A program made the translations under genes and the position numbers. Shown one piece after another: positions 3,001 to 23,523 of a DNA stretch of 24,177 nt (positions within the stretch are counted from its first letter, which is position 1; each line of letters opens with the position of its first letter). Source of the DNA: a virus; IMG/VR virus record IMGVR_UViG_3300037585_003527, positions 1-24,177 of that record; one strand, written 5' to 3'. The notes under the pieces were generated by a model. That model made no database searches. It was not told the origin of the DNA and saw only the letters and a list, made by a program, of their open reading frames with translations.

Positions 3001-6000
3001 GTGGTGCAGTAACTGGATTACATTCTAGTAGTATGATCAATTCAGAATATACTTATACTAGTGAATATGCAGATTCTAATAATGTGAACTATAATGGAAT
3101 GACGCTATCGCAATCAAATTATATATTTGAACAAGAGACAGATGATGAAGGAGCTCTAACAGGTGGTAGAGTTGTGTCTTATATTAATGGTGCTATAGCA
3201 TGGTATTCATGTTCACAAGATAAAGTACCATATACATTAATTGAAAGCGATGGTAAAATTGAGGAGTTTTTAACTGAAGTAAATGGTGAACTTCACTTTT
3301 CTGAGTCATTTGAATATCTCGCTACAACTGCATCCTATCATATGTACAATACTACTCATTATAATACAAATATAGCATGGAATGCACAAACAGAATTTTC
3401 ACAAACTTCAAGTTGGTGGTTAGCACAAACCTTGAATACCTCTGAAATATATTATGATACAACAGAGAGTAGAAAATATTATGATATCCCAATAAATAAT
3501 AACTTAAATACAGGGTTTATTAGCTATGATGTTACCTTCATGACAGCCCCGGTAGACACTATGGCACAATTACCTAATGGATTTTATATTAAATCTGCAA
3601 GCGGTGATCCTGATAGTATGGATTACTATATTAGTGAATCATCAATTACAGTGATAAATACAGATTCTCCGTTTCATGGCCACACATTTTCAGGTTCAGG
3701 AGTAACCGCTTATAATAGAGTGCCGCTACCGAGACATAATATAGATAATTACTTTACATCACCATATAATTTTAAGTCAAGAACATCAACTACAGCTGAT
3801 TATGAAGCTTCGAAGGATTTTGGTTATACGTCATATTCACCAATGTATGTTGCTGGATATTTTTCTTCCGGATCACTAGTATCACAATCTGTTAGTTTTC
3901 CTAAAATAACAGGAAATTTTCTAATGGGCACAGACGGTAGTTTAGGGGGATTTTTAGAAGAACTTGATGCAGTAGATCCTGATTTTATTTTAGAAGAAGT
4001 AAGTAATGTAGGGTCAAGTGCAACTACAGTTACTTTACCTGATGATTATATGATACATTATGCATCACAGTCACAGCAAGAATATGTAGAGGAAGTAATT
4101 GGCAATCGCCAAATTACAAATATAATGAATGATGTAGTTACAACAGATTGGATTACTGTAAATGAGTTAGATTTATACATTAACGGGTATATAACTACAG
4201 GGAGTATAATTCTTGTATCAGAATCTAATCAAAGTACTTTTGAATGGTATACAGGACTATTACCGTACTGTGGCGTTACATCAATAACTGCTGGAACACC
4301 GTATTTTAATAACTGTATTACTGTAGGTGGTGTTGAGCCTAGAGCGATTGCAGATGACCCTACCAGCTTAGCTATAGGCCCAAATCAAACATATTGGATT
4401 GAAGGTGGATTTGAAGGTACTGTAACTGAACCTCAACTATCAATACACACTAGTAGTGGTAAATTTATAGTAAAACATCAGACACATTCTTTTTATAATG
4501 CAGAGTTATTAGAAACATTAGATAATAGTGGTTCAGTGTCTTATACGAGAAAATCTCTCAGAAGAGCTTATGGTAGCAGTAGTGGCCATCCGTTTGGAGG
4601 GTATGTGAATGAACCTGATGGAGGTTATAGATTTAAATACACGCAATCATATAATAACACATCATCAGGTAATTCATATACATCAGGTCCTGTAGGTATT
4701 CCACTTCATAGGCCAAAGAGACATAATTGGGTTAATCAATATTCTCACGGTAGTCACATAAACGTACAGGCATTAGGTGCGATGACTTATGCTGGTACAC
4801 ATGTGGCTTCCATTAATAGTTCCTTTCCATATTATATTTTCACAGAAGAAAAAGATGAACTGAGAAAATATCATGGTTTAACATACACTAATTACCCGCA
4901 GTTGGTAAATCTACAGGATACTGATATAAGTGTTGAAGTGTTACCAACAGGAGATGTTGTATCGAGGTTAGATACCTCTGAAGGATATAATGTGCAGAGG
5001 AAGAGGCATTACCATAAAAGGAATCTACCAGAAACAGATGGTGGGTATAGCTATTATAAGAGTTTTAGCGGTACATCAGCAGCTTCACCGCAAGTGACTG
5101 GTGTTGCATCTTTAATAGGGCAACTTGATCCAACTGCTAACGTAACCACAATGATTAAGTATTTAGATCACTTATCATATAAAACCGCAATAGGATCTTT
5201 ATCAGGTATTGGACCAAATGCACCGGAGCATGATAAGGACTTAGGTGTTAATGATTTTGAAAAATGGTATCATGGAATGTGGTTCTGGGGAGGAGATATG
5301 GAAGGAACAAGCGAAAACATAAGGCAATACAACTACAGTAAAATTAGTGCAGAAAAAGCTGATCAAATTTCACAGGACTATTATCCTAATTATCAATCCG
5401 AAGGCCACAGTAGTACACCAAACACGCGATACTACCGTACAGGAATGCAAGGTGAGGCTAGAGATACGAGTTTAACAACATTCTTGGGTAAAAAGACATC
5501 ACAAGCAGCAGTGGAAGATATAATAGGGTTATGTAATGGTACGTATGGATATACTTGGGATTATATAGTTGAGAATAATGGTATAGTTCCTATGTCATTC
5601 AAGCCAGGCTTTGACCCCGCATCGGACGATCATTACTTTAGATATTTCCCAGGTGGATCTGCTTCTGTCCATTCACCTAGCGTTGAATATATAAATTTCA
5701 CACGGACCTCTATGAATCATACTCCAACATCTTCTGTTAAGAACTGGTATGGTGCATTTCCTGATGATCCATATAATGGTATGGCGTGGAGTGTATTTGA
5801 TAATATTATGTACCCTAAATTTCTCGGTGGTCAATCGAACACTTTTTATGATGAGTTTGCACAGTATATGAAGATTGTAGGTATAAATCCAAAACTAGGT
5901 GTAGATGCAGGTACCTACCCTGACGGTGATAATGGACCCTTTGCAACTGGTATGGGTAGACAGCAATGGTTAGTACCATTACTTACACCAAACACCACAG

Positions 6001-6626
6001 AATCTTACTACGATTCGATCCCGAGCACAACTCGTGGTGTGACAGGACCACACTGGATGAGTGAGATCTTAAGAAGACGATACTTAGGTACTTGGAATAG
6101 ATTAACGTTTACGCAACCGTATATACATTACGATACAACACAAAATGTACTTCACTGGCCATATAGAGAAGTATCGTCATTTGCAACAGACCCTGAATTT
6201 AATTTAACAAATATTGTACCTACTACACCATCTCCTGGATCTTGGCAAAATTCTAATAAAGGATTAGGTAGTAATTTAGAGTTATTAGGTGATATGACAT
6301 TCAAGACAGATGGAATTTCACCTACACCGATTAGTACACCAAGTGTCGTATCAGGAGAAATAACTCCAATAATATCACTCAACAACCTCTATACGGAAGG
6401 ATCAGAATTAAATTTACCAGATGAGACTGATTATATCGGTAGTTACCACATTCACTATACACATGGTGCGATGGTCGGTGCAGAGCATACTACAATACCT
6501 CATAATATGTTAACACCTACAACCACTCAATTCTCTGAAAGTATTGTTAGTATTATGAGTTTATTAGCTGTAGGTGATACATCAGTTGACTCTGGAATGG
6601 GAGACGTATCTAGTGGTGGATACTAG
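1..6626 (+). CDS. Giant virion-associated subtilase-like protein, 5' truncated by the window edge
   Basis: The reading frame is open from position 3 through the ATG at 165 to the TAG at 6624-6626, so the start lies outside the window and Met165 is internal. Subtilisin (S8) landmarks occur in order. The Asp motif VIIFDSSIDPMH has its Asp codon at 147-149. Numbering from Met165, HGTAAAAT has His148, VINHSGG is at 215-221, HSAGN has the oxyanion Asn467, ITVGGVE is at 1385-1391 and GTSAASP has Ser1638. In ordinary subtilisins these lie within about 200 residues; here the loops between them hold insertions of roughly 80 to 900 residues. The inserted sequence is rich in Tyr, Ser, Thr and Asn and I recognise no other domain in it. 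The gene lies just upstream of the neck gene, where T4-like phages often carry large tail or fibre genes. A virion or tail-surface protease is inferred; catalytic activity is plausible because the triad is intact. Confidence 0.75.
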   Translation, partial: PISHLLEIPYDIQYGSGYNQPQIPLFNNKLDFSTLSDISGSDVDVIIFDSSIDPMHSEFKNRIGESRLQLIDWEYLYNNPNTTWEDLRAHDITLSELDACIKDVCNIAVDNFIEAKGADATIEEIEAFDWPQEIETILCGTKPRDSHDPDNQSQWVTPWTWTGRNYTAPSGKSMWQHPLFNRLGNYLLHIVTRPANSSTHYHGTAAAATSVGLDTGWGSDATIYFLSHNFRLISSDGKIRDHSEGVGQYLLSKFQELKKASNNINTLTVINHSGGSFSGGLFANMRHHRIPTHEKIFGKTTSSAGFSGLFGYTAVTIDENTEFYLSQVSQSIIGYTQSQHAHNTGDTTQWPMFHPWYTYFGDINDKDSILAHNKKINNFIDQYKINKSATNMNFGVYGGEDEQNINFPSTRGAYHRMWRTLVSESNVLADYPGEVGYITASAEQYLLLESHSHDPSYNKALPSSYWEDRGTRLQDDIMFCNHLHIAKCFVTGSDGRTIDNRSKHLDIATDNGAIYIHSAGNTLLSNNANITEHVTEVGEYPKAKLHKYNDIAGDGVNVYDDYYTIFNTGSRVITPKIKCKIFRSGLDHPDQIVHQNEGIMLDKVTTAPSGVYQIGFCDPSDEILNKIPSTPQGLIISNSLSNYSCQSGSIYELQDISPDNFKRVTDSDLMIMPIVLSSYASSSWDPLEDRNNDPTRQPCFLGGNARFDDITVPFDPTIYQNSFYPSYAVLANNLTYGGTTSTQRKVPIIYKTFVDSINYQLKGNISHSTNVAEYVTQNYHTASLAASKIRRLSNNEPAYDCYRGKGQPSKTSSFEYIYGYQKNDETFTSRVDRGLVHPYILPNGELAKSESNNLSTYLSDFHHAGFDEDMAIPRINLDPTSPNKPQYLALCDPRLPNSLRSDIVGLVSSASGLEMQADGWIPYANYVASSSTWEKIFRVLNVGRGVGHFGPLGNDQALNYPVSITTTHPWGTSFTELSSLYNITFSYCNHDWYDGGMRNGGAVTGLHSSSMINSEYTYTSEYADSNNVNYNGMTLSQSNYIFEQETDDEGALTGGRVVSYINGAIAWYSCSQDKVPYTLIESDGKIEEFLTEVNGELHFSESFEYLATTASYHMYNTTHYNTNIAWNAQTEFSQTSSWWLAQTLNTSEIYYDTTESRKYYDIPINNNLNTGFISYDVTFMTAPVDTMAQLPNGFYIKSASGDPDSMDYYISESSITVINTDSPFHGHTFSGSGVTAYNRVPLPRHNIDNYFTSPYNFKSRTSTTADYEASKDFGYTSYSPMYVAGYFSSGSLVSQSVSFPKITGNFLMGTDGSLGGFLEELDAVDPDFILEEVSNVGSSATTVTLPDDYMIHYASQSQQEYVEEVIGNRQITNIMNDVVTTDWITVNELDLYINGYITTGSIILVSESNQSTFEWYTGLLPYCGVTSITAGTPYFNNCITVGGVEPRAIADDPTSLAIGPNQTYWIEGGFEGTVTEPQLSIHTSSGKFIVKHQTHSFYNAELLETLDNSGSVSYTRKSLRRAYGSSSGHPFGGYVNEPDGGYRFKYTQSYNNTSSGNSYTSGPVGIPLHRPKRHNWVNQYSHGSHINVQALGAMTYAGTHVASINSSFPYYIFTEEKDELRKYHGLTYTNYPQLVNLQDTDISVEVLPTGDVVSRLDTSEGYNVQRKRHYHKRNLPETDGGYSYYKSFSGTSAASPQVTGVASLIGQLDPTANVTTMIKYLDHLSYKTAIGSLSGIGPNAPEHDKDLGVNDFEKWYHGMWFWGGDMEGTSENIRQYNYSKISAEKADQISQDYYPNYQSEGHSSTPNTRYYRTGMQGEARDTSLTTFLGKKTSQAAVEDIIGLCNGTYGYTWDYIVENNGIVPMSFKPGFDPASDDHYFRYFPGGSASVHSPSVEYINFTRTSMNHTPTSSVKNWYGAFPDDPYNGMAWSVFDNIMYPKFLGGQSNTFYDEFAQYMKIVGINPKLGVDAGTYPDGDNGPFATGMGRQQWLVPLLTPNTTESYYDSIPSTTRGVTGPHWMSEILRRRYLGTWNRLTFTQPYIHYDTTQNVLHWPYREVSSFATDPEFNLTNIVPTTPSPGSWQNSNKGLGSNLELLGDMTFKTDGISPTPISTPSVVSGEITPIISLNNLYTEGSELNLPDETDYIGSYHIHYTHGAMVGAEHTTIPHNMLTPTTTQFSESIVSIMSLLAVGDTSVDSGMGDVSSGGY

Positions 6627-9416: not shown

Positions 9417-11123
9417 ATGGCAATTAAAATAACCGGTGATGAAATAAGATTTACAAGTGCTAGTGGTGAGATAACTACATATAAGCAAGAAGATGCAAAA
9501 GAAGTTTTTGTAAAAAGGAAATCTGATGATGGATTACCTATGAAGCGTCTGCGATCTTTTGAAAGTGCATCGACATTTATCGATCTTAATGCATCAGGTA
9601 TAACTCCTTCAGGTCACTCAGCCCCTAGACCTGGAATGATTAAAGGGGATACTATTGATATTTTTGTAAAAGATACTTATGAAGCACTTCATATAGATTC
9701 ACACCTAATATCTATAGGACCTAAATCAAACACTCGTTTAGAATTAACAGGTTCTTTATTTAGTAATGGAATATCAGGTTCATTTGATTATAGTAATGTT
9801 AGTTGGATGCAACTTGAAAATATGGCAATGGATATAACTCAAGGAGGATTTTTTGGATTAGCAGTTTCAGGTTCTACATTAGCATCTAACTTATATAATA
9901 TGGCTAATAATCTATCCGGATTCTTTTTAACTGGTAGCAATGTAATTATATCAGGTTCAACAGAATTATCAGGTTCTACAATAATTACAGGTGGTGATAC
10001 ACAAATAACTGGAAGTCTTATCCAATCAGGTTCAACTACATTAACAGGTGGTGATGTAATTATATCCGGTTCTACAGAATTATCAGGTTCAACAATAATT
10101 ACTGGAGGTGATACTGAAATTACAGGATCAACAATTATATCAGGTTCAACAATAATTACTGGAGGTGATACGCAGATAACTGGGTCAACAATTATATCAG
10201 GTTCAACAACTATTACAGGAGGCGATACACAGATAACAGGTTCAACTGTAATCTCTGGTTCAACAATTATTACTGGTGGTGATACTGAAATAACTGGTTC
10301 AACAATTATATCTGGTTCAACAATTATTACGGGTGGTGATACACAAATAACAGGATCAACAATATTATCCGGTTCTACAGTAATCACCGGAGGAGATACT
10401 GAAATAACAGGGTCGACAACTATATCAGGTTCTACAGTAATCACCGGAGGAGATACTGAAATAACAGGGTCGACAACTATATCAGGTTCAACTACAGTTA
10501 TTATATCAGAATTCACTCAATCAGGTACTTCAATATTTGATGGTGGAACAACAACATTTACAGGTATATCAGGTTCATTATCAGCTTCGTTATCTGGATC
10601 AGATATAGCTGTAGAAGTATCAGGTACTATATCAGTGGATGGAGACGTAGCAGTAAATTATACTAATAATGCTCCAATATCATCATCATTAACATTAACA
10701 AATGGAGCCCATGGGTTAGGTAGAACACTAAATGTTAGAAGTGGTTCTAGTCCTTATATACCTTCTGGTCCATATAGCGGATTACCTGTAACTACAGGTG
10801 TATATAACGCAAATCCTGCAGGAGAATTAGAATTAACATTACCTGCCGCTACAATTGGGTTATCATTCCATGTTAGAAATTGCGGAGTTAATACATTCCC
10901 ATATGTCCAGTCTGGTTATCAAGGACCGCCATCAATAAAAATTTCTCCATCAGGAAGTAATAAATTTATATATGGAGCAGGTGGTAGTACCGGCGTAGCT
11001 GGAAAAGCAATAATAAATCATTCATCTTCATTTCAAATGGGAGATTTTGCAGTTGTAAGCTGTGTTTCACAATCTCATTGGATGATTCAACAAATGGGTG
11101 GAACATGGACAGATGAAGCATAA
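9417..11123 (+). CDS. Repeat-containing beta-helix-like virion protein (fibre or decoration)
   Basis: A 568-aa protein in three parts. Residues 1 to about 170 are a mixed N-terminal region starting AIKITGDEIRFTSASGE. Residues about 174-362 are nine tandem 19-residue units of the type ITGSTIISGSTIITGGDTQ, each with a GGD turn spaced exactly 19 residues apart from Gly192 to Gly344. The remaining ~200 residues form a C-terminal region with LELTLPAATIGLSFHVRNCG and an ending HWMIQQMGGTWTDEA. The regular Ile/Val, Ser/Thr and Gly pattern suggests one beta-helix coil per unit, as in phage fibres. The last part resembles C-terminal domains I have seen on phage virion proteins. AAGG at 9406-9409 supports the start. 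It sits between gp15 and gp18, where T4 has the terminase genes, so it is probably a late structural or fibre protein. Exact role is unknown. Confidence 0.65.
   Translation: MAIKITGDEIRFTSASGEITTYKQEDAKEVFVKRKSDDGLPMKRLRSFESASTFIDLNASGITPSGHSAPRPGMIKGDTIDIFVKDTYEALHIDSHLISIGPKSNTRLELTGSLFSNGISGSFDYSNVSWMQLENMAMDITQGGFFGLAVSGSTLASNLYNMANNLSGFFLTGSNVIISGSTELSGSTIITGGDTQITGSLIQSGSTTLTGGDVIISGSTELSGSTIITGGDTEITGSTIISGSTIITGGDTQITGSTIISGSTTITGGDTQITGSTVISGSTIITGGDTEITGSTIISGSTIITGGDTQITGSTILSGSTVITGGDTEITGSTTISGSTVITGGDTEITGSTTISGSTTVIISEFTQSGTSIFDGGTTTFTGISGSLSASLSGSDIAVEVSGTISVDGDVAVNYTNNAPISSSLTLTNGAHGLGRTLNVRSGSSPYIPSGPYSGLPVTTGVYNANPAGELELTLPAATIGLSFHVRNCGVNTFPYVQSGYQGPPSIKISPSGSNKFIYGAGGSTGVAGKAIINHSSSFQMGDFAVVSCVSQSHWMIQQMGGTWTDEA
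9936..10489 (+). repeat. Tandem 57-nt coding repeats, nine units
   Basis: In-frame tandem array inside the fibre-like gene. The GGD (GGT/GGA first codon) landmark occurs at 9990, 10047, 10104, 10161, 10218, 10275, 10332, 10389 and 10446, strictly every 57 nt. Most units differ at synonymous or conservative positions, so the array is old. However, 10371-10432 and 10428-10489 are identical over 62 nt, which indicates one very recent duplication of a unit. It is not a CRISPR array: there are no unique spacers and the reading frame is maintained. Confidence 0.95.
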
Positions 11124-11211: not shown

Positions 11212-13329
11212 ATGGCTGAAAAAATTATAAGTCCTGGCGTCTTTACGCGTGAAAATGACTTATCATTCTTACCACAAGGTGTTGGTGAGATTGGTGCAGC
11301 AATTGTAGGTCCAACAGTAAAAGGACCAGTAGGTATACCAACACAAGTTACATCATACGCACAATATGTTGATATATTTGGAAACACATTCAAAAGTGGA
11401 AGTGATTACTTCCAATACTTAACTTCACATACAGCAGAACATTATCTTAAAGACGGTGGCCCATTAACTGTAGTTAGAATAGCAGGAGATGAGTATAGTC
11501 ATGCATCCAGTTCAGTATCAACAGGTGAGATAGCTAGTGATGGTACCATAATGACTGGATCTTTAGTGTATGATAATAGTGCATTTCAAGATGAAGGTGA
11601 TGAAGTACAAATTACTGTAGGTGGTGTAGAATATAGAATTATTGGAGCTGCAGCGGAAGATGATAATTTCCCAGCAGATGATTCACCTATATTCTTTGCT
11701 TCGACAGGTTCAACCCCTACATTAGCAATATCTTCTTTAGCAGCGAAAATTAATGCAATAGATATTGGTGTATCTGCGTTAGCCGTCGGTGCAACAAATT
11801 TAGAATTAACTGCATCTGCAGCTGGTAATCAAGTAATAACTGTTCAGACAGGTTCTGGTGGTACAATAGAAACAAATGCATTGACATTAGGTGGTGGTAT
11901 TAATGCCTCAGCATCGGTAGCATTCAATATAAGAACAATATCAGATGGTGATAATCTGAATAATTATCAAGAATCGGAAGGTATTAACCATGTATTAGAA
12001 AGTGGATCGAAAGATAATATTAGATGGGAAGTTACTAATGTAGATACTAAAGTAGGTACATTTAACTTAGTTGTTAGACGTGGGAATGACAGTAGTGTCG
12101 CTAAAATACCTCTTGAAACATGGAGCAACTTATCATTAGATCCAAACGCAAGTAATTATATCAGTAAAGTTATAGGTGATATGGTATACACTGTACGTGG
12201 ATCAGATGATGATCCTTACTTACAATTATCAGGATCATATTCTAATAAATCAAGATATATACGAGTTGAAGTATTAAAGCAAACTGTTGATTATCTAGAT
12301 GAAAATGGTGATGTTAGAATAGCAGCAGCATCACAATCACTACCTGTAAGTGGTACATCAGGATCATTTAATGGTGGAGCTGATGGTAATAAACTTGCTG
12401 CAGCGAAATTCTACGAAAATATTTCTGCAGCTAACTGTCAAGGATATGACTTAAATGATATTGGAAATAGTAACGGTGGTACATCATATGCTAAGGCATT
12501 AAATTTACTTGCAAATCAAGATGAATATGATATTAACATGCTATTAGTACCAGGTGCTAATCAAGCAATGCACGGTCCAGTTATAGATAAAGCAATTAAG
12601 GTTGCAGAATCTAGAGGAGACTGTTTTGTAGTTGCTGATCCTGTTGGATATGGCGCTGGGTCTATGGTATCAGTAACAGAGGAAGCAGCTAAATATAACT
12701 CAAGTTACGCAGCAATGTATTGGCCATGGGTTCAGGTACCTGATAATCAATTAAATAAATTAGCATGGGTTCCAGCAGGAGTTGTATTACCAGGAGTACT
12801 TGCATTTAATGATAGAATCGCTCATGAATGGTATGCACCTGCAGGATTAAATAGAGGTGGAGTTGATGTAGCAGTTAGAGCTGAGCGTAAATTAACTCAT
12901 ACAAATAGAGACGCATTATATGCAGGTCGTGTTAATCCACTAGCAACATTCCCAGGACAAGGAGTTGTTGTATGGGGTCAAAAGACTTTACAGAAAAAAG
13001 CTTCAGCATTAGATCGAGTTAATGTACGAAGATTATTAATTAACCTTAAAAAATTCATTGCATCTACTAGTAAGTATCTTGTATTCGAAAACAATACAAA
13101 TGAAACTAGAAATAGATTCTTATCAACTGTTGTTCCATATATGGAGAGAGTACAACAAAACAACGGATTATATGCATTTAAAGTTGTAATGGATGATTCA
13201 AACAATACACCTGACATCATCGATAGAAATATCATGAAGGGAGATATATTTATTCAACCAGCGAAAGCTGCTGAATTTATTGTAGTCGACTTTAATGTTA
13301 TGCCAACTGGTGCAACTTTTGGTGAATAA
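11212..13329 (+). CDS. 18: Contractile tail sheath protein, gp18
   Basis: A 705-aa sheath subunit (T4 gp18 is 659 aa). The N-terminus ISPGVFTRENDLSFLP and the following GAAIVGPTVKGPVGIPTQV stretch are typical of myovirus sheath proteins, as is the DYFQYLTSHTAEHYLKDGG segment leading into VVRIAG. Residues about 100-245 are Ala/Gly/Thr-rich and match the place of the protruding domain of T4 gp18. The C-terminal half contains the conserved core: AMYWPWVQVPD, the PAGVVLPGVLAFNDR region, GVVVWGQKTL, NVRRLLINLKKFI and a final DGDI-like KGDIFIQPAKAAEFIVVDFN strand arrangement ending GATFGE. The strong site AGGAG at 11200-11204 supports the start. The protein polymerises around the tube and contracts to drive it through the envelope. 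The tube gene follows after 29 nt. Confidence 0.95.
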   Translation: MAEKIISPGVFTRENDLSFLPQGVGEIGAAIVGPTVKGPVGIPTQVTSYAQYVDIFGNTFKSGSDYFQYLTSHTAEHYLKDGGPLTVVRIAGDEYSHASSSVSTGEIASDGTIMTGSLVYDNSAFQDEGDEVQITVGGVEYRIIGAAAEDDNFPADDSPIFFASTGSTPTLAISSLAAKINAIDIGVSALAVGATNLELTASAAGNQVITVQTGSGGTIETNALTLGGGINASASVAFNIRTISDGDNLNNYQESEGINHVLESGSKDNIRWEVTNVDTKVGTFNLVVRRGNDSSVAKIPLETWSNLSLDPNASNYISKVIGDMVYTVRGSDDDPYLQLSGSYSNKSRYIRVEVLKQTVDYLDENGDVRIAAASQSLPVSGTSGSFNGGADGNKLAAAKFYENISAANCQGYDLNDIGNSNGGTSYAKALNLLANQDEYDINMLLVPGANQAMHGPVIDKAIKVAESRGDCFVVADPVGYGAGSMVSVTEEAAKYNSSYAAMYWPWVQVPDNQLNKLAWVPAGVVLPGVLAFNDRIAHEWYAPAGLNRGGVDVAVRAERKLTHTNRDALYAGRVNPLATFPGQGVVVWGQKTLQKKASALDRVNVRRLLINLKKFIASTSKYLVFENNTNETRNRFLSTVVPYMERVQQNNGLYAFKVVMDDSNNTPDIIDRNIMKGDIFIQPAKAAEFIVVDFNVMPTGATFGE

Positions 13330-13358: not shown

Positions 13359-13847
13359 ATGGCAGAGACTATTAGCGCACAACAATTAATGTTCAACTCA
13401 TTTACACCGAAAGTATCAAATCGGTTTGTGATGTCAGTTGGAGATATACCATCATTCATCTGTAAAAAGGTGTCACGTCCTGGAATAACATTCGGTGAGG
13501 TTGTAATTGATCATATTAATACAAAGCGTAAATTGCAAGGTAAAGCAGATTGGAATGATATAACTGTAACGTTATGGGATCCAATTGTACCATCAGGTGC
13601 ACAGCATGTAATGGAGTGGGTTCGTAAAGGATATGAATCAGCGACAGGAGCAGCTGGATATGCAGATTTCTATAAAGAAGATGTTACTATTGAAGTTCTA
13701 GGACCTCAAGGTGATATTAGAGAAAGATGGGTTATTAAAGGAGCATTTCCATTAACAACAGAGATGGGTGAATTAGATTGGTCTAATGATCAACCAGTAG
13801 AAATAACACTTACTTTAAAATATGATTATGCAGTATTAGAATTCTAA
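13359..13847 (+). CDS. 19: Tail tube protein, gp19
   Basis: A 162-aa protein, almost exactly the length of T4 gp19 (163 aa). It has the recognisable gp19 order: NRFVMSVGDIPSFICKKVSRPGI near residues 20-45, then DHINTKRKLQGKADWNDITVTLWDP, the VMEWVRKGYESATG helix, YKEDVTIEVLGPQG, and a C-terminal WSNDQPVEITLTLKYDYAVL strand. The protein stacks as hexameric rings to form the inner tube around the tape measure and is the channel for DNA. AGGAG at 13347-13351 supports the start. It lies 29 nt after the sheath gene, the normal sheath-tube pair, and is followed by a strong intrinsic terminator. The very high expected expression of the sheath-tube pair fits that terminator. No anomaly is seen. Confidence 0.95.
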   Translation: MAETISAQQLMFNSFTPKVSNRFVMSVGDIPSFICKKVSRPGITFGEVVIDHINTKRKLQGKADWNDITVTLWDPIVPSGAQHVMEWVRKGYESATGAAGYADFYKEDVTIEVLGPQGDIRERWVIKGAFPLTTEMGELDWSNDQPVEITLTLKYDYAVLEF

Positions 13848-13942: not shown

Positions 13943-14794
13943 ATGTCAGGACAAGTTATAGATACAGATTATCCAGGTGATGTTTCTAATAAAGATATAA
14001 AAGAACAAGCAATTGCACGGGCAGCTGCTACAAATAATTTTGATTTCCCTACTGAAATAGTAGATTTACCGAGTAGAGGGTTAATATATTCAAAAGACCA
14101 TCCACTATCAACAGGTAAAGTTGAGATGAAATATATGACAGCACGTGAAGAAGATATTCTAACTAACCCAACACTTATTAAGCAGGGTAAAGCATTAGAT
14201 AAATTATTTCAAGCTCTTATTGTCGGTAATGGTGAAGGTAAAGCTGTTAACTATAATGATTTATTGCTCGGTGATAAAAATGCTATTATGATTGCTGCAC
14301 GCGTATTAGGATATGGACCAGAATATGATATTACTGTCAATATTCCAGGAACTACTGAATCATTTACATATACTGTTGATTTAACAGATATTGGTAATGA
14401 ACCTATTAATGCAGATAATTATAATAATTGTAACGAGTTTGAATTTGTATTACCTGTCGGTGGTCAAACCGTAAAATTTAGATTACTTACAGGGTTAGAA
14501 GAGGCATCCATCGCTACACAATTAGAAAAACAATCATTACGTGGTCACTCTAGAGGCGTTACTACTCGATTAAAGCATCAGATTTTTGCTATAGATGATA
14601 TAACTGATAAACAAGAAATTAGTAACTTTATAGATAATCAGTTGATAGCTAGAGATTCTCTAAAATTACGTACTTATATTGTTGAAATAGCTCCAGATAT
14701 AGATTTAACAGTTCGTGTAAAAAATGATGAGTTTAATTATGATAGTGAGATGACACTACCTATTGGATTAGACTTTTTTTGGCCTAGGGTTTAA
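13943..14794 (+). CDS. 26: Baseplate hub / tail assembly chaperone, gp26-like
   Basis: A 283-aa protein of the T4 gp26 family as found in marine T4-like phages. Diagnostic stretches are FPTEIVDLPSRGLIYSKDHP (residues about 34-53), then GKVEMKYMTAREEDILTNP, IKQGKALDKLFQALIVG, LLLGDKNAIMIAARVLGYGPEY and a late FRLLTGLEEASI. In T4, gp26 is needed for baseplate hub assembly. By position before the tape measure gene, this family also corresponds to the tail assembly chaperones of other tailed phages. AAAGGAG at 13929-13935 gives a strong start. The zero-frame product ends DFFWPRV. A run of seven T at 14774-14780 lies in the last codons and the +1 frame is open from there into a gp51-like sequence, so a frameshifted 349- or 350-aa product is likely as well. 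Confidence 0.85.
   Translation: MSGQVIDTDYPGDVSNKDIKEQAIARAAATNNFDFPTEIVDLPSRGLIYSKDHPLSTGKVEMKYMTAREEDILTNPTLIKQGKALDKLFQALIVGNGEGKAVNYNDLLLGDKNAIMIAARVLGYGPEYDITVNIPGTTESFTYTVDLTDIGNEPINADNYNNCNEFEFVLPVGGQTVKFRLLTGLEEASIATQLEKQSLRGHSRGVTTRLKHQIFAIDDITDKQEISNFIDNQLIARDSLKLRTYIVEIAPDIDLTVRVKNDEFNYDSEMTLPIGLDFFWPRV
14771..14794 (+). other. Probable programmed ribosomal frameshift site (+1 or -2)
   Basis: The last zero-frame codons are GAC TTT TTT TGG CCT AGG GTT TAA. The +1 frame has a TAG at 14769-14771 and is then open to 14993, so any shift must occur between 14772 and 14794. The Phe tRNA on TTT 14777-14779 could re-pair perfectly with TTT 14778-14780, giving GGC as the next codon (+1); a -2 slip on the same T run reaches the same frame with one more Phe. 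The -1 frame stops at once (TTG GCC TAG). Confidence 0.6.
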
Positions 14795-14993
14795 CTATAA
14801 GCCCATAATACATCAAGAGATATTCTATCTTGTACATCATGGTGGAGGCGGATATACCGTGTCTGATGTATACGCTATGCCAGTTTGGCTACGTAGATTC
14901 CACATAAAATGCTTAAACGATGTATTCAAAGAACGTACTGAGCAAACAGAGAAGCGCACGAAAGAACTACAAAGAAACGCTCGTAAAAGGTAA
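14781..14993 (+). CDS. 51: gp51-like chaperone extension, in the +1 frame relative to gp26
   Basis: Seventy codons in the +1 frame after the T run, ending at TAA 14991-14993. The product reads GLGFNYKPI, then HQEIFYLVHHGGGGYT, SDVYAMPVWLRRFHI and a charged, helical C-terminus ending RNARKR. The Gly-rich turn followed by Asp-Val-Tyr-x-Met-Pro-x-Trp-Leu-Arg-Arg-Phe is a pattern I recall from the small protein that follows gp26 in marine T4-like phages and is compared with gp51, the baseplate hub assembly factor. In many tailed phages two overlapping chaperone frames before the tape measure are joined by a frameshift, and this layout matches. An alternative is independent initiation at GTG 14859 behind GGAGG (14844-14848), giving a 44-aa protein; that would leave the conserved-looking upstream part (HQEIFYLVHHGGGGYT) untranslated, so I prefer the frameshift. 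Confidence 0.6.
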   Translation, partial: GLGFNYKPIIHQEIFYLVHHGGGGYTVSDVYAMPVWLRRFHIKCLNDVFKERTEQTEKRTKELQRNARKR

Positions 14994-15034: not shown

Positions 15035-15208
15035 ATGAATATAAATAAAATCGTCGCAGGTATGTTAGGATTATTTCTAGCAAAGAAGGGTATAAAGTCT
15101 TTAGCGAAAAAGAAGGCTTTAAGAGATCCTGATATCCTCGCACAAATACGAAAAATTCAAGCAGATGTAGATGCACTTAATTCTAAACTAGATAATATGA
15201 GAGATTAA
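15035..15208 (+). CDS. Small hypothetical protein (57 aa) upstream of the tape measure gene
   Basis: A 57-codon frame with the strong site AGGAG at 15026-15030 and its own candidate promoter element. The product has a hydrophobic N-terminal segment (KIVAGMLGLFLAKKGI), then a basic KSLAKKKALRD, then an acidic heptad-like helix DILAQIRKIQADVDALNSKL that could form a coiled coil. The combination suggests a small membrane-touching or helix-bundle protein. It could be a partner of the tape measure protein, whose ATG follows five bases after this stop codon. I do not recognise a family. The good ribosome binding site and clean spacing make it a real gene rather than a chance frame. Confidence 0.7.
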   Translation: MNINKIVAGMLGLFLAKKGIKSLAKKKALRDPDILAQIRKIQADVDALNSKLDNMRD

Positions 15209-15213
15209 TACCT

Positions 15214-16977
15214 ATGGCTAAAAATGATGGAGCAGAAGAATTAGCGAATTTGAAGCATTCAGTAGCTGTATCTGAAATAAAACTGAAAACTCAGAAGTCT
15301 ATCTATGGAACAGAATTAAAGATATCAGGTAATCTAAAACAGCAGGTAAAAGAAAAAGAGAAGCTTAATGAGTTAGATAGAGAAAATGAAAAAATAAGAC
15401 TAGATGTATTAAATCTTGAAAAGAAGATTGGTGATAAAGCTAAAGAGCAAGAGAAAGGATTAATAAACCATTTAAAGAAATCTGCTACAATCTTATCTAT
15501 TACCAAAACAATGCAGAGTGCTATTGAGAAGATTTCTGCTACCCAACGTGATACAGCCAATCACATGGGTGTAACTCTCAATAAAGCAGCAAAAATAAAT
15601 AAAAATATAGCAAAAGAGCTTGCATTATCTGGGCAAGTTGATACTACTAGACATGAAATTCTAGAAACTATGCATGAAATGGATGATGTAATGAGATCAT
15701 CTAATTTATATAACGAAAAAATGGCAATGAATTTGTCTGTAACTGCAAACAAATTAAATATATCTAGAACAGAAGCAGCTAAATTATCTGCAGACATGCA
15801 AATGATAGATGGGGCATCAGCAGAAGCCGCTGAAAGTACACTAGTACTAGTAAAGAATTTTGCAGACGCTAAAGGTGTTAAAATGGGTGCAGTAATGAAA
15901 GATGTCGCTGCGCAAGGAAAAGCTTTCACAAACTGGTCTGGTATGAGTTTAAAGAATATGATGCGTACTGCTGTTGAAACTAGAAAGATGGGATTTGAAT
16001 TATCTGATGCTATGAATGTAGCTAATAAACTATTAGATGTTGAAGGATCAATTGAATCTCAAATGAAATTCAATGTATTGACAGGAAAAGACGCTAACTT
16101 CGATAAAGCTAGAGCATTAATGCTAGAAGGTAAGCATGCAGAAGCATTAGCAGAAGTTCGTGATCAAGTTGGAGATATATCAAAACTTAATATATTAGAG
16201 TTGCAATCATTAGAACAAGCGACTGGAATGACACGTGATAAATTAATGACATCAACAGCGATAAAAGAAAATGCAGCAACCAATGTTGAATTAGAACAAC
16301 AAGCTGCTGAAGCTCTTGAAAGAGGAGATACCGCTTTAGCTAATCAACTTTTATCACAACTAGACGGAACAACAGCTGCAGAAGCAAATGCAAATGCACA
16401 AACAAATATCCAAGAATCATTAGCTACTCAATTTGCAGATCAGAAAAAGATGAAAAATATAATGCTAGGTATTCAAATTATACAAGGTACAATAGCTGCT
16501 ATTTCTGCTGCAAAAGCTGTTGCTGAATTAACGGCTGCATCAGCTTTAACAATGGGACTCGGTATAGTAGGAATATTAGCTGGGTTATCACTTGGTGTAG
16601 CTGCTATGACAGGAGCATTTAGTTCTACAAAACCAGCAGCAAAAAAACCAGGTGACTTGGGAATTGATCCAAATGGTGGACCTGTAGTAATGTCTCCAAA
16701 AGAGGGTGGACTATTCCAAGGGACAAAAAATGATGGTATATCAATGAGTCCTTCACATGGAGTTAATGGAGGTGGAGAAGGAAGCTCCGGTGTAGCACAA
16801 AAACTAGATACATTAATAGAAGTATTATCACGATCAGGAACTAACGGAAGCTCCGCTGTAGCACAAAAACTAGATATAGTGATACAATTATTATCACAGC
16901 AAAGAATATTAAATGTATCAGGAACACAATTAGCAGAAGTAATGGATTTAGAGCGAGTACCAGTTGGGATAGGATAA
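15214..16977 (+). CDS. 29: Tape measure protein, gp29-like
   Basis: A 587-aa protein, close to T4 gp29 (590 aa), in the tape measure position between hub chaperone and tube-cap genes. Residues 1 to about 100 are a charged coiled coil (KQQVKEKEKLNELDRENEKI). Residues about 100-410 are almost entirely alpha-helical and Ala/Lys/Glu-rich. Residues about 415-469 are a hydrophobic Ala/Gly/Ile-rich region ending GIVGILAGLSLGVAAMTGAF, as in tape measures that reach the host membrane. A Gly/Pro-rich linker (residues about 475-522) leads to two copies of GSS-x-VAQKLD (near residues 523 and 545), a 66-nt duplication with 30 of 31 leading bases identical. The protein fixes tail length and is ejected during infection. 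The ribosome binding site is weak (GAGAG about ten bases upstream), so translation may be coupled to the 57-aa gene. Confidence 0.85.
   Translation: MAKNDGAEELANLKHSVAVSEIKLKTQKSIYGTELKISGNLKQQVKEKEKLNELDRENEKIRLDVLNLEKKIGDKAKEQEKGLINHLKKSATILSITKTMQSAIEKISATQRDTANHMGVTLNKAAKINKNIAKELALSGQVDTTRHEILETMHEMDDVMRSSNLYNEKMAMNLSVTANKLNISRTEAAKLSADMQMIDGASAEAAESTLVLVKNFADAKGVKMGAVMKDVAAQGKAFTNWSGMSLKNMMRTAVETRKMGFELSDAMNVANKLLDVEGSIESQMKFNVLTGKDANFDKARALMLEGKHAEALAEVRDQVGDISKLNILELQSLEQATGMTRDKLMTSTAIKENAATNVELEQQAAEALERGDTALANQLLSQLDGTTAAEANANAQTNIQESLATQFADQKKMKNIMLGIQIIQGTIAAISAAKAVAELTAASALTMGLGIVGILAGLSLGVAAMTGAFSSTKPAAKKPGDLGIDPNGGPVVMSPKEGGLFQGTKNDGISMSPSHGVNGGGEGSSGVAQKLDTLIEVLSRSGTNGSSAVAQKLDIVIQLLSQQRILNVSGTQLAEVMDLERVPVGIG
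16780..16876 (+). repeat. Duplicated 66-nt unit in the tape measure C-terminus
   Basis: GGAAGCTCCG at 16780 and again at 16846 each begin a 31-nt stretch identical except for one base (G/C at the eleventh position), encoding GSSGVAQKLD and GSSAVAQKLD. Both copies continue into an amphipathic helix ending in IEVLSR or IQLLSQ. The offset is 66 nt (22 residues), in frame. Confidence 0.85.
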
Positions 16978-18310: not shown

Positions 18311-21300
18311 ATGTCTAGTTTTAGAGGAATAGTATTAGATTCAATTCACCCTAATATTAAAACTGCATTAGATAAAGAAACTGCAGGGTTTACTCGTGAA
18401 GATGGACGATCATATCAACATATTACATCACGAACTCCATGGATGAGATCCGTGCCATTTACTGTCCCTGTAAATCCAGATGAAATGGAGATACCAGTAC
18501 CTAGATGGCAAGAATGGGTTTTATATTCACAGAAAGGTACAGATAGAAATGATCCCAAGAAAGTTACGCAATTTGGTAGAGCAGGTGTAGCAGGAGATAG
18601 CACTGGGCTATATCGTAGTAATCTTAGAAATACACCAATACCGGGTATTACAAGTATTCGAGTTAGTAATAAAGGTGATTTAGGTACATTACGTCGAGCA
18701 ACATTAGCTATCAAATGTTATCATGAAGCAGACTTACATGAATTAGAGATGATGTATATGGTCCCTGGTGTTAGTATCCTATTAGAATGGGGATGGTATT
18801 CAGAGGTAAAAAGTCAGCAACCGATATTTTTAGGTGATTTAGAAGACAATGGTAGATTAAATAATATAACCAAAATTCAAGAAGAGTTATTAAAGAAAAC
18901 TTTAGATATTGATAGTTTATTAGTTCAGCATAATCATGAAGGATCATTAGAAACTAGTGCTGGTTTATATGATGGATTAATAGGAGTTGTTACAAAATTT
19001 AATTGGTCTAATGCATCTGATGGATCATATGATATACAGATTGATATAATTGCTCCGAATAGCTTAACATTAGGTGTACCTACAGAGACTTATAAGTTAG
19101 GTGGTAATATAATAGATCCAGAAGATGGTAAATCAACACCAGTTACAGATGTTGATGTAATATATTATAAAATAAATACAAAATCTTCTCGAATTGAGGG
19201 AGATGCATCCAAGCAAGCTGTACAGCAAAATGAGAATATATCGCGAAATGCTGTATCGACAATAGATGAATTCTCTGATTCATTGATGTTTGAAGAAGCT
19301 TCTATGTTAAGTTTAGAAACTTCTGCTCTAAAAAATAGTTTTGGATTCGTTGAGTTTTATGAAGAAGATGGCGAACTTAAAGCAAAAATAGTACAAGACG
19401 ATCCAGAACAAGCACTTTCAGAAGTTGAGCATGAAGAGCCTGTATATGAATACACTGAGGAAAGCTGGTTATTCGGAACATCTACTACAATGGAAGTTAC
19501 TGCAGAATTCGCAGCGAATAATGAAGACGCTGTTAAAACAGATAGAACGGTGAAGGATGGAACTAGAGATTTAGTAATTAAAGATAAGGATGGTAAAGAA
19601 ATATACGCTGGAAATTATCTATCAGGAGTGGTTAAAAATGATTTATCAAATTTAATTGAGCAAGCCATTGCAGCTCATTCTAGAGAATTAAGTGCAAAAG
19701 TAGATCAGCAGCAAGAATCAGAAATAGAATTTGCAAGCCAAATAGAGTATGCAACTCAAGATGATGTAAATTATTTATCATGGAAAAGAGTTATATTTGA
19801 GCAAGGTTATGATCAAAAATCAGTTCCTATAATGACTTGTGACGAAGGAATAGGGACTACTATTCCACGAGCTCGTGAAATATCATTTATGGCAGAGAAT
19901 AATGAGATGGGAATATCTGCATATAGTGAAACATATGTGAGTTGGAGATTTATAGAAGAGTACATTATCAATGAACTATTCATGCCGCGTATGGAAGATA
20001 ATACTCTAGCAATTAAATTTATGAGTATGCATCCAATACCAGTAGTACCTGAAGAAGATCAAGAAGTTACAGAAGAAGATGTTTTATACGAGAGTGTAAA
20101 AATAATTAATAATCCATGGATTAGATCATTAGATCCTAGAGTGTGTATACTGCCAGGGCAAGAATATGATGCATCATTAATTACACGACTACCTGGATCA
20201 GATCCGACATTTGAAATGAAAAATCACTTCTATGTTGATACATCAGCGACGGAAGGGTACCTACGTAATATACTAATTAATATAAATATAGTTAGAGAAG
20301 CTGCAGAAGATTCAGAAAGCGTTAATGATTTTGCAATGGAGATTTTATCACAAGTATCAGAAGCATGTGGAAACCCTTGGTCATTTAAAGTAATTACAAA
20401 TACAGCATTACAGCAAGTTATGATTATCGATGAAAATCATAAAGGGAATCATAAAGGATATAAGGAAGCAGCAGATCAAAGGTCAAATGTAGCATATAGA
20501 TTCTCAGGTATTGGGACAAATAATATATGTAAAGATGTTAAAATTCAAACAAAGTTACCGAGTGAAATTCAAACCATGGCTTACTATGCAGCAAGTGGAG
20601 CAGGGTCATCTACTGGAGCTGATCTTAATATGTTTAAATTATATGGAGCAGGATTACGTGATAGAATGAAACCTAATTTCCAAGCTAATGAAACAACTGC
20701 TAAAGAGAAGGAAGCTAAAGAGAAGAATGAGCGAGATAATACATATAAAAGATATTGGGAGTTAGTAAAAAAGACTCGTACAGATACTTTACATGGATTA
20801 GAAAAAAGTAAAGCGTATAAACAAGGAACAAAAATTGCTACCAACTTTGCGAAGATATTTATATTAGATGCATCCGATAATAATCCATCATATGGACCAC
20901 CTATCCCGATAGATATATCTCTAACATTAAATGGTATATCTGGAATATATATGGGTAATGCAATTATGCTAGATACTGTTGATGATGGTGGAATGCTACC
21001 AAGTAGATATAAGAATATTGTAGCACTACAAACTACAGCTGTAGATCAAGATGTATCAGCAGATGGATGGACTACAAATATAAGTACACTAATGCGACCA
21101 ATGAAAACATTAGAAGCAGTTGAAGTTAAATTACGAGAGCCTGCAATGTCTATACCAAATTATGTAACGAAAGTTGAAACGGTAGATGATAAAGAGAATG
21201 CATTACCGGTAGTTGAAGAGTTTGCACAACATCTAACACATACGGGAGTTCCATATGTTCACGGTACACCACAACCATCTCAGGAATTCTATAAAATTAG

Positions 21301-21748
21301 AGGTAGTCAGTCAAATGGATTATTTGCAACTCAAAATGATGATGAAGAGTATTTTGCAGCATTAATATTCCCGTCATGGATTGCACTAACTAGAGAAGCT
21401 AAATCAGCTGGTATTAAGCTACAAGTAAATGATTCTTGGAGATCATTTGAGAAACAAGATTACTTATATCAAGGTCGACAAGATTATAAAGCACGTGGAG
21501 AGACGCCACCAGTATTCCATCCAGCAGATCAAGCAGGGTGGTCAAAACATCAATCAGGTATCGGAATAGACGTAAATTCATATCCAGAAGATCATTATAA
21601 ATGGATGGTAAATCACGCTCATAGATTTGGATTTAGACGAAATGTGCAAGGTGAAGCATGGCACTGGGTGTATCAACCAAATGAGGGTATTTATTCAAAA
21701 GTTCCAAAAGATCATGAATCTTGGAGAGGACAGGAGGCAATTGTATAA
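18311..21748 (+). CDS. Baseplate hub protein fused to an M15 (VanY-type) peptidoglycan peptidase
   Basis: A 1145-aa protein. Residues about 90-265 contain NTPIPGITSIRVSNKGDLG, LRRATLAIKCYHEADLHELE and MYMVPGVSILLEWGW, a pattern I recall from gp27-type hub proteins of marine T4-like phages. Residues about 290-490 are a charged, Glu/Asp-rich insertion. A second conserved core runs to about 960 and includes SEACGNPWSFKV. The C-terminal ~130 residues are an M15 D-Ala-D-Ala carboxypeptidase/endopeptidase-like domain: SWRSFEKQDYLY, SKHQSGIGIDVN with His1080 and Asp1087, and GEAWHWVY with Glu1115 and His1118, so all zinc ligands and the catalytic Glu are present. T4 uses a gp5 lysozyme at this place; a peptide-cutting enzyme here would serve the same penetration step. 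GAGG at 18301-18304 supports the start. The stop overlaps the next ATG (TAATG). Confidence 0.8.
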   Translation: MSSFRGIVLDSIHPNIKTALDKETAGFTREDGRSYQHITSRTPWMRSVPFTVPVNPDEMEIPVPRWQEWVLYSQKGTDRNDPKKVTQFGRAGVAGDSTGLYRSNLRNTPIPGITSIRVSNKGDLGTLRRATLAIKCYHEADLHELEMMYMVPGVSILLEWGWYSEVKSQQPIFLGDLEDNGRLNNITKIQEELLKKTLDIDSLLVQHNHEGSLETSAGLYDGLIGVVTKFNWSNASDGSYDIQIDIIAPNSLTLGVPTETYKLGGNIIDPEDGKSTPVTDVDVIYYKINTKSSRIEGDASKQAVQQNENISRNAVSTIDEFSDSLMFEEASMLSLETSALKNSFGFVEFYEEDGELKAKIVQDDPEQALSEVEHEEPVYEYTEESWLFGTSTTMEVTAEFAANNEDAVKTDRTVKDGTRDLVIKDKDGKEIYAGNYLSGVVKNDLSNLIEQAIAAHSRELSAKVDQQQESEIEFASQIEYATQDDVNYLSWKRVIFEQGYDQKSVPIMTCDEGIGTTIPRAREISFMAENNEMGISAYSETYVSWRFIEEYIINELFMPRMEDNTLAIKFMSMHPIPVVPEEDQEVTEEDVLYESVKIINNPWIRSLDPRVCILPGQEYDASLITRLPGSDPTFEMKNHFYVDTSATEGYLRNILININIVREAAEDSESVNDFAMEILSQVSEACGNPWSFKVITNTALQQVMIIDENHKGNHKGYKEAADQRSNVAYRFSGIGTNNICKDVKIQTKLPSEIQTMAYYAASGAGSSTGADLNMFKLYGAGLRDRMKPNFQANETTAKEKEAKEKNERDNTYKRYWELVKKTRTDTLHGLEKSKAYKQGTKIATNFAKIFILDASDNNPSYGPPIPIDISLTLNGISGIYMGNAIMLDTVDDGGMLPSRYKNIVALQTTAVDQDVSADGWTTNISTLMRPMKTLEAVEVKLREPAMSIPNYVTKVETVDDKENALPVVEEFAQHLTHTGVPYVHGTPQPSQEFYKIRGSQSNGLFATQNDDEEYFAALIFPSWIALTREAKSAGIKLQVNDSWRSFEKQDYLYQGRQDYKARGETPPVFHPADQAGWSKHQSGIGIDVNSYPEDHYKWMVNHAHRFGFRRNVQGEAWHWVYQPNEGIYSKVPKDHESWRGQEAIV

Positions 21749-22245: not shown

Positions 22246-23523
22246 ATGATTGTAGATAGCGATCTGATTCTCAGTGAATTGAAGTCTAAGTATAAAGACT
22301 CGGAAAATATTGTTATACCTATTTATAGTGATGTTAATAAACATCGCATACATAATCGTGTATCTCTATTATATATTTATAATATAAACACTAAAAGTGA
22401 ATATATTATCCCTATCAATCATTCCGATAAAATCCATAATATCAGAGATTTGAATTTCATAAATAATGATAATAAGACATATACGTATAGCAGTGGAATT
22501 GAAAATTCAGTAAATATAGATGCGTTATATTATTTCCACAAATCTACAAATATAAAAGAATCTGATTTATATACAAATGCACATGCATATTACTATAATA
22601 GATGTTGGAGATTAAATAATATTAATGATATAATACCTCTATTAAAGCATAAAGAATACTGTAAGAAGATAGTAGATATTATATTACCATTATTAGAATT
22701 ATGTAATGAACCTGGATTTACTGAGTATAATGATGTATTACTGCCACAATTAAAACAAATTGAATCCGCAGGATTATATACAACTGATAATATACTAGAG
22801 CATACAAGGTATAATCCATGGTCTATTACAGGTCGTCCTAGTAATGCATTTAATGGTATAAATTACGCTGCTTTGAATAAAGATGATGAAACGAGAGAGC
22901 GATATATTAGTAGATTTGATGATGGTAAATTAGTTGAATTTGATTATGATGCATATCACTTAAGATTGATTGCTAATATAATTGATTATAAATTACCAGA
23001 TACTTCTATACATGCATACTTAGGAAAGTATTATTTCGATAAAGAACTGCTAACAGAAGATGAATATAATGAATCAAAATCAATAACGTTTAAAATACTA
23101 TATGGTGGGATTCCTAAAGAATTCGAGAATATACCATTCTTCAGTGAAATAAAGAAGTATATTTTTGAAGTTTGGGATATTTATAAGCGTAAAGGTTATG
23201 TACAAACACCAATTTTTAAACGTAAAATCTATAGAGATAATTTAAAATCACGTGATATAAAACCACAAACATTATTTAATTATACAATACAGGCTGTAGA
23301 GACGGAGCAAAATATTAACGTTATAAAAGATATACACACATTCTTAAACGATAAAAAGACTAAGCTAATACTATATACGTATGATGCAATGCTATTCGAT
23401 CTACATCCATCTGAAGCTAACATAATGAAAGATATTTCAAACCTAATGAAATTCCCAGTTAAATGTAAGACTGGTAGAGATTATAAAAATATGAAAGCTT
23501 TTGATTTTAAACTGCTTGGTTGA
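22246..23523 (+). CDS. Reduced family A DNA polymerase-like protein with altered active-site motifs
   Basis: A 425-aa protein with family A polymerase landmarks in order. These are TGRPSN at 195-200; motif A DYDAYHLR with Asp233 (E. coli Pol I Asp705); motif B with Lys278, Phe282 and Tyr286 in ESKSITFKILYGG; a Gln in FNYTIQAVETEQN; and motif C as YDA at 379-381, where Asp380 is the second metal ligand. Departures from Pol I are His238 for the steric-gate Glu710, Tyr274 for Arg754, and Tyr-Asp-Ala for His-Asp-Glu. Residues 1 to about 140 may be the remains of a 3'-5' exonuclease fold (SLLYIYNINTKSEYIIPINH), but I see no DEDD residues. Full-length Pol I is 928 aa and the Klenow fragment about 605. 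AAAGG at 22235-22239 supports the start. The gene sits inside a structural cluster, 39 nt after the preceding gene. Both catalytic Asp residues remain, so activity is possible but unproven. Confidence 0.8.
   Translation: MIVDSDLILSELKSKYKDSENIVIPIYSDVNKHRIHNRVSLLYIYNINTKSEYIIPINHSDKIHNIRDLNFINNDNKTYTYSSGIENSVNIDALYYFHKSTNIKESDLYTNAHAYYYNRCWRLNNINDIIPLLKHKEYCKKIVDIILPLLELCNEPGFTEYNDVLLPQLKQIESAGLYTTDNILEHTRYNPWSITGRPSNAFNGINYAALNKDDETRERYISRFDDGKLVEFDYDAYHLRLIANIIDYKLPDTSIHAYLGKYYFDKELLTEDEYNESKSITFKILYGGIPKEFENIPFFSEIKKYIFEVWDIYKRKGYVQTPIFKRKIYRDNLKSRDIKPQTLFNYTIQAVETEQNINVIKDIHTFLNDKKTKLILYTYDAMLFDLHPSEANIMKDISNLMKFPVKCKTGRDYKNMKAFDFKLLG

Follow-up and report, generated by a model that had tools for sequence, protein, structure and literature searches.

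Tail assembly chaperones generally use a −1 frameshift, as in gpG/gpGT of lambda (Levin, 1993; Xu, 2004; reviewed in PMC5009743), and a 2016 review placed −1, −2 and +1 shifts among the tailed phages, with T4 as the exception (PMC5009743). Lambda-type phages make their two chaperone forms by frameshift, while T4 has two genes for gp26 and gp51, paralogues that both belong to PF12322 and whose genes lie on opposite strands, so that no shift can join them. Here we describe a locus that fills the gap between these arrangements: a T4-type chaperone gene in a 24,177-nucleotide stretch of viral DNA (positions 1 to 24,177 of IMG/VR record IMGVR_UViG_3300037585_003527; the whole stretch is hereafter "the window"), in which one gene appears to supply both forms through a programmed +1 ribosomal frameshift. 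We judge this the best explanation of the long chaperone, with a probability of roughly 0.92, from comparison of sequences.

In phage tail genes, +1 shifts are the less common type. Known cases include CUU_UGA in prfB, CCC_UGA in a tail gene of Listeria phage PSA and, very likely, the tail chaperone of the archaeal myovirus HSTV-2 (PMC5009743). Influenza PA-X shifts +1 on UUU_CGU, and the authors of that work predicted that UUU_C sites form a wider class (PMC3498833). Closer to the present gene, some T4-like phages are reported to carry a short and a long gene in place of a frameshift (PRFect, PMC10885494, as taken from Vladimirov et al., 2022), and poly-T −1 signals are reported for T4-like genes of the short chaperone, TAC-N (PMC12846349, citing Vladimirov et al., 2022). 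As −1, −2 and +1 tail shifts, T4-type chaperones and poly-T −1 signals have all been published, this kind of system is known; the statement in a preliminary description of the window that no frameshift had been described for gp26/gp51 is correct for T4 but does not extend to the wider group as these citing papers present it. As far as we found, in a literature that includes Vladimirov et al. (2022) through the papers that cite it, there is no description of the +1 UUU_Y site, of its family-wide conservation or of the hairpin presented below.

The locus comprises five features, and the frameshift region itself begins at 14774 rather than at 14758, where the preliminary description had set its start:

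13943-14794, plus strand: TAC-N, short tail assembly chaperone, T4 gp26-like, 283 amino acids, zero frame (PF12322, PHROG 150).
14774-14782, plus strand: putative slip site TTT TTT TGG, with its T7 run at 14774-14780.
14781-14993, plus strand: TAC-C, +1-frame extension of 70 codons, with its stop TAA at 14991-14993; the predicted fusion has 349 amino acids.
14787-14804, plus strand: predicted downstream RNA hairpin, a 7-base-pair stem and a 4-nucleotide loop (14787-14793 paired with 14798-14804).
14792-14794, plus strand: zero-frame stop TAA of the short form (W-P-R-V-stop).

The 283-amino-acid open reading frame (ORF) ends in GAC TTT TTT TGG CCT AGG GTT TAA, and the +1 reading GGC CTA GGG TTT, which continues to TAA 14991-14993, gives GLGFNYKPIIHQEIFYLVHHGGGGYTVSDVYAMPVWLRRF...; the 70 further codons claimed earlier are thus open up to 14993. 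The +1 frame has a stop of its own, TAG 14767-14769, just upstream of the junction, so a shift must fall between about 14770 and 14791. Most ribosomes would terminate at TAA 14792-14794 and release the short form TAC-N (the gp26 equivalent), while a fraction carrying peptidyl-tRNA-Phe on a P-site UUU would slip one base forward (UUU to UUU or UUC) ahead of the next decoding step and would go on in the +1 frame to make the 349-amino-acid TAC-NC (the gp51 equivalent). On the model of gpG/gpGT in lambda, the short form would coat the tape measure protein, while tail tube subunits would be recruited by the extra domain. That the shift takes place in cells, how efficient it is, which TTT sits in the P site and what the two chaperones do are matters that we infer from this comparison.

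The family of the zero-frame product is clear. The 283-amino-acid ORF matches PF12322, the family of T4 gp26, with E=9e-9 and 35.8 bits (curated Pfam cut-off 24.5), and PHROG 150 with E=2e-12. Its AlphaFold model (mean predicted local distance difference test, pLDDT, 85) matches models of gp26 and "baseplate hub assembly" proteins in BFVD, with E down to 9e-19; in the PDB the best match, to 2ob9, the tail assembly chaperone of HK97, is weak (probability 0.66, E 0.42) but apt.

The evidence that carries our interpretation is the conservation of the junction among relatives, gathered with three different queries and from phage and genome records, which yielded 166 distinct junctions (73 clusters at 80% identity). 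The slip site, the frame relation and the shifted-frame protein are kept in all 166, which strongly supports the earlier proposal that a programmed shift adds a C-terminal domain, encoded out of frame, to the gp26-like protein. The site is TTT TTT TGG CC(T/A) in 133 junctions, TTT CTT TGG CCT in 27, TTT CTA TGG CCT in 4, and TTT CTT TAC CCT and TTT TTT TTC CCT in 1 each; UUU followed by a pyrimidine (TTTT or TTTC), the arrangement of a PA-X-like UUU_Y +1 site, is therefore present in 166/166, and the zero frame terminates 3-6 codons from the TGG in 165/166. Codon usage at the junction, taken from a subset of 94 distinct relatives, points the same way: codon −6 is TTT in 94/94 and never TTC, although TTC makes up 24% of Phe codons elsewhere in the same genes, and codon −3 is TTT in 71, CTT in 21 and CTA in 2, with TGG next in 93/94. 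Leu at codon −3 is written only as CTT or CTA, never as TTA, though TTA accounts for half of the Leu codons in these genes. Within the window TTTTTTTGG occurs once, and TTTTTTTGGCC occurs 80 times in 80 relatives (413,802 bases), each locus having one at the junction. As in G/GT-type systems, then, the short ORF has a conserved slip site close to its end, paired with an out-of-frame extension under protein-level selection.

Homopolymers are error-prone, and one alternative is a single gene broken at such a run, through a sequencing or assembly error or as a pseudogene. The same junction, however, recurs in 166 distinct sequences from independent metagenomes, the finished isolate genomes of phages immuto, Mel-JY01 and RM378 share the +1 relation, variants without the homopolymer exist and both frames are under purifying selection; the probability of such an artefact is vanishingly small. 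Slippage could also lie with the RNA polymerase, which would add or drop a U at the T7 run and leave ribosomes to read a normal frame, and homopolymer runs can indeed cause polymerase slippage (reviewed in PMC5009743). Against this, 32/166 distinct junctions have C at the fourth position and hence no T7 run, yet keep the +1 relation; T7 is moreover short for bacterial slippage, and the conserved hairpin and TTT-Y codon pattern suit ribosomal slippage better. The variants TTT-CTT-TGG and TTT-CTA-TGG exclude transcript slippage as a general mechanism, and we regard it as very improbable for this locus.

The +1 frame reads as a protein from the slip site onward. It is open in 166/166 distinct junctions, over 62-105 codons where complete, whereas a +1 frame that stays open for 72 codons is found by chance at 0.04% of coding positions in the window. 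From the slip site to GTG 14859 the ratio of nonsynonymous to synonymous polymorphism (pN/pS) for the +1 frame was 0.21 within the window's group and 0.18 and 0.26 in two others, compared with 0.9 to 6 for the same bases in other frames. TAC-C has the conserved pattern H..IF.L.YHG.GGF...DVYNMP.WLR.FY, and its AlphaFold model has three helices (pLDDT 89); no significant match came from a fold search made with this domain by itself. These data bear on whether the +1 ORF is instead a small gene of its own, translated from GTG 14859 or through re-initiation past TAA 14794. The window does have an in-frame GTG, and the annotation of Microcystis phage Mel-JY01 includes a second, overlapping ORF; in existing annotations the second half of the frameshift gene is missed or split. 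Yet the protein is conserved and under purifying selection in the +1 frame from the slip site, well before GTG 14859, so a separate start is not needed. Neither a ribosome-binding site nor a start is conserved: 30/94 relatives are without a start throughout codons 1-35 of the +1 ORF, and the start-like codon seen most often encodes the M of the conserved NMP motif. The preliminary description had named relatives with their own conserved ATG or GTG, and no protein conservation before GTG 14859, as the pattern that would count against a frameshift, and the relatives have the reverse pattern. Translation of TAC-C as a gene of its own is, on this evidence, extremely improbable.

As to direction, the preliminary description left +1 and −2 side by side. 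A −2 shift as in phage Mu would land in the same frame and differ by one extra Phe (...LDFFFGLGF...), and on T7 the P-site tRNA-Phe could step back two bases onto UUU; at T7 sites a +1 slip at either codon gives the identical peptide. The variants separate the two directions. TTT-CTT-TGG, TTT-CTA-TGG and TTT-CTT-TAC all keep the frame relation, and on the tree CTT is derived within one clade from TTT, and CTA has two independent origins inside the CTT clade, showing that the site changed while the frame relation stayed. On TTT CTN, tRNA-Phe re-pairs perfectly when it moves from UUU to UUC (+1), whereas a −2 shift on CTA would have tRNA-Leu re-pair on UUC with a wobble and a mismatch; re-pairing for −2, which T7 alone would allow, thus fails to extend to all relatives. 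The CTT variant is less decisive, as its cost for −2 is only one wobble. Taken together, the CTT and CTA variants favour the +1 half of the earlier alternative and strongly disfavour −2, which we consider unlikely. A +1 slippage of tRNA-Phe on UUU_Y is compatible with all variants of the frameshifting family, the A-site codon being UGG, or UUU/CUU/CUA. A classical −1 shift (X_XXY_YYZ) was also considered and rejected: in 73% of relatives the −1 frame reaches a stop within 2 codons, it encodes no conserved protein, and in the window it stops at once (LA*).

A hairpin starting 6 nucleotides past the T run (minimum free energy −8.1 kcal/mol, z −2.1) accompanies the site in the window's group, with the zero-frame stop TAA 14792-14794 spanning its stem-loop boundary. 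Across 23 distinct relatives 95% of stem cells are paired, whereas sliding the partner by 1-3 columns left pairing at only 16-53%, and double compensatory changes occur in 4/7 stem pairs (GC to CG, CG to UA, GC to AU, GC to UG). Full stems were found in 18/21 rows against 0.15 expected when synonymous codons were shuffled with the +1-frame amino acids kept, the 21 rows having been picked as members of the hairpin group, a choice that favours the result somewhat. On the tree the hairpin needs one change relative to the labelled CTT and CTA groups, in a test that leaves out unlabelled rows, some of them nested among hairpin rows yet without the hairpin. The hairpin may stimulate the shift or delay termination, and it probably tunes the rate of shifting in the window's group. 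Three other loci (L203, L229 and L237) have another stem, GCGGGC...GCCCGC (about 7 base pairs, 9-nucleotide loop, −12 to −13 kcal/mol), just past the slip site and offset from the register of the window's hairpin.

Three observations weigh against a programmed +1 shift to a gp51-like form. The stem is absent outside the window's group, and the hairpin therefore cannot be essential family-wide; no conserved Shine-Dalgarno-like stimulator or purine stretch was found upstream when the junctions were inspected by eye; and the profile match between the extension and the gp51 C-terminus is weak on its own (probability 15%, E 0.0017).

Comparison with T4 clarifies what the two forms correspond to. 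T4 gp26 and gp51 are TAC-N and TAC-NC of the same family as the window's gene (Vladimirov et al., 2022, as described in PMC10885494), and gp51's extra C-terminal domain would be supplied here by the +1 frame, with one gene and a frameshift in place of two genes on opposite strands. On the PHROG 150 profile T4 gp51 is covered to position 280 and gp26 only to 235; in the window, the short form reaches 233 and the frameshift fusion 263 of 282, which points to the whole fusion as the counterpart of gp51, with the +1 ORF as gp51's extra domain. By itself the +1 ORF is no gp51-like gene, as the earlier description had it, but would be the C-terminal domain of one. Gene counts follow the same division, with two PHROG 150 genes in T4 and 44RR, which lack the shift, and exactly one in each of ten frameshifting phages.

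T4-like jumbo phages have homologous TAC-N and TAC-C and a poly-T slip site in the corresponding place, but use the classical heptamer T_TTT_TTY and a −1 shift where the window has UUU_Y and +1. Specifically, RaK2, 121Q, Vibrio 2.275.O, CM1, PA5oct, Atu_ph07 and LR756511 reach the homologous domain by −1 at T_TTT_TT(C/T), and the TAC-C profile matches the −1-frame extensions of jumbo phages with E=1.5e-7. In several records of jumbo or huge phages (among our loci L090, L092, L259, L260, L261, L262 and L089) the −1 out-of-frame extension is unannotated or stands as a separate hypothetical gene. The +1 relation itself extends to distant members, Rhodothermus phage RM378 (TTT TTT TGG AAT) and huge phage LR756508 (TTT CTA TTC CCT), and is clear in SP-15, LIS04 and GXN1, in which the slip site is less clear (near "nCC CGA TTY"). 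IMG/VR scans for near relatives of SP-15, RM378 and LR756508 returned only themselves or nothing. All three routes to the two forms (+1 shift, −1 shift and a duplicated gene) occur in one homologous family, so that hypotheses on how the direction of shifting evolved can be tested.

With lambda gpG/gpGT the locus shares its place in the tail operon and the production of a short and a C-terminally extended form from one gene by a shift near the end of the short form; it differs in direction (−1 in lambda), in slip site and in having a T4-type (PF12322) chaperone of a contractile-tail phage. In the known +1 cases one tRNA in the P site moves ahead by a base when the A site is slow or empty, as we propose here, and the UUU_C slip of PA-X is precisely the one expected of the TTT-CTT and TTT-CTA variants; unlike those cases, one group here has a covarying downstream hairpin. 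A UUU_Y site with neither a stop codon nor a Shine-Dalgarno helper matches the class predicted after PA-X (PMC3498833). With distinctly less assurance than for the shift itself, we think it on balance probable that a large family of T4-type phages, some on Bacteroidota, represents an undescribed bacterial +1 class, in which tRNA-Phe slips on UUU_Y without stop codon or Shine-Dalgarno helper and is tuned by a hairpin in one group, and that a single chaperone family has switched among −1, +1 and gene duplication. Relatives also come from metagenome-assembled genomes whose titles name Flavobacteriales, Winogradskyella, Saprospiraceae and other groups (L263-L271), a hint of Bacteroidota hosts, though these may be mis-binned phage contigs.

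The frameshift gene lies in a contractile-tail operon (tail sheath, tail tube, the 283-amino-acid ORF, a 57-amino-acid ORF, a probable tape measure gene and then baseplate genes), flanked by the tail tube gene (5') and a tape-measure-like ORF (3'), the position of the G/GT gene in lambda:

11212-13329: tail sheath.
13359-13847, plus strand: tail tube protein (gp19-like), directly 5' of TAC-N (PF06841 E=1e-7, PHROG 4542 E=4e-28).
15035-15208: 57-amino-acid ORF (MNINKIVAGMLGLFLAKKGIKSLAKKKALRDPD...), lying after the frameshift gene and before the probable tape measure gene.
15214-16977, plus strand: probable tape measure protein, 587 amino acids, assigned by position only.

Pfam and PHROG searches gave no family match for the tape measure candidate; the equivalent downstream gene is annotated as tail tape measure in Flavobacterium phage immuto and Bacillus phage SP-15. 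Short ORFs occur at the place equivalent to the 57-amino-acid ORF in Mel-JY01 and immuto.

Elsewhere in the window, a 2153-amino-acid ORF of the structural region (165-6626) has a subtilase (Peptidase_S8) match at about residues 1620-1663 (E=1.5e-5) that includes GTSAASPQVTGVASL, a serine-protease-like domain. In the baseplate region, the 1145-amino-acid protein of 18311-21748 has a D-Ala-D-Ala carboxypeptidase domain of the VanY type at its C-terminal end (E=1e-9) and is perhaps a cell-wall-cutting hub. Tandem repeats of 57 base pairs (multiples 114, 171) at 9940-10492, within ORF 9417-11123, encode SGSTIITGGDTQITGST-type repeats, and a mirrored open frame lies over them on the other strand (9839-10516). 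Beside the tail genes, a 425-amino-acid ORF (22246-23523) matches family A DNA polymerase over residues 211-401 (E=1e-9) and seems shorter than the usual phage PolA.
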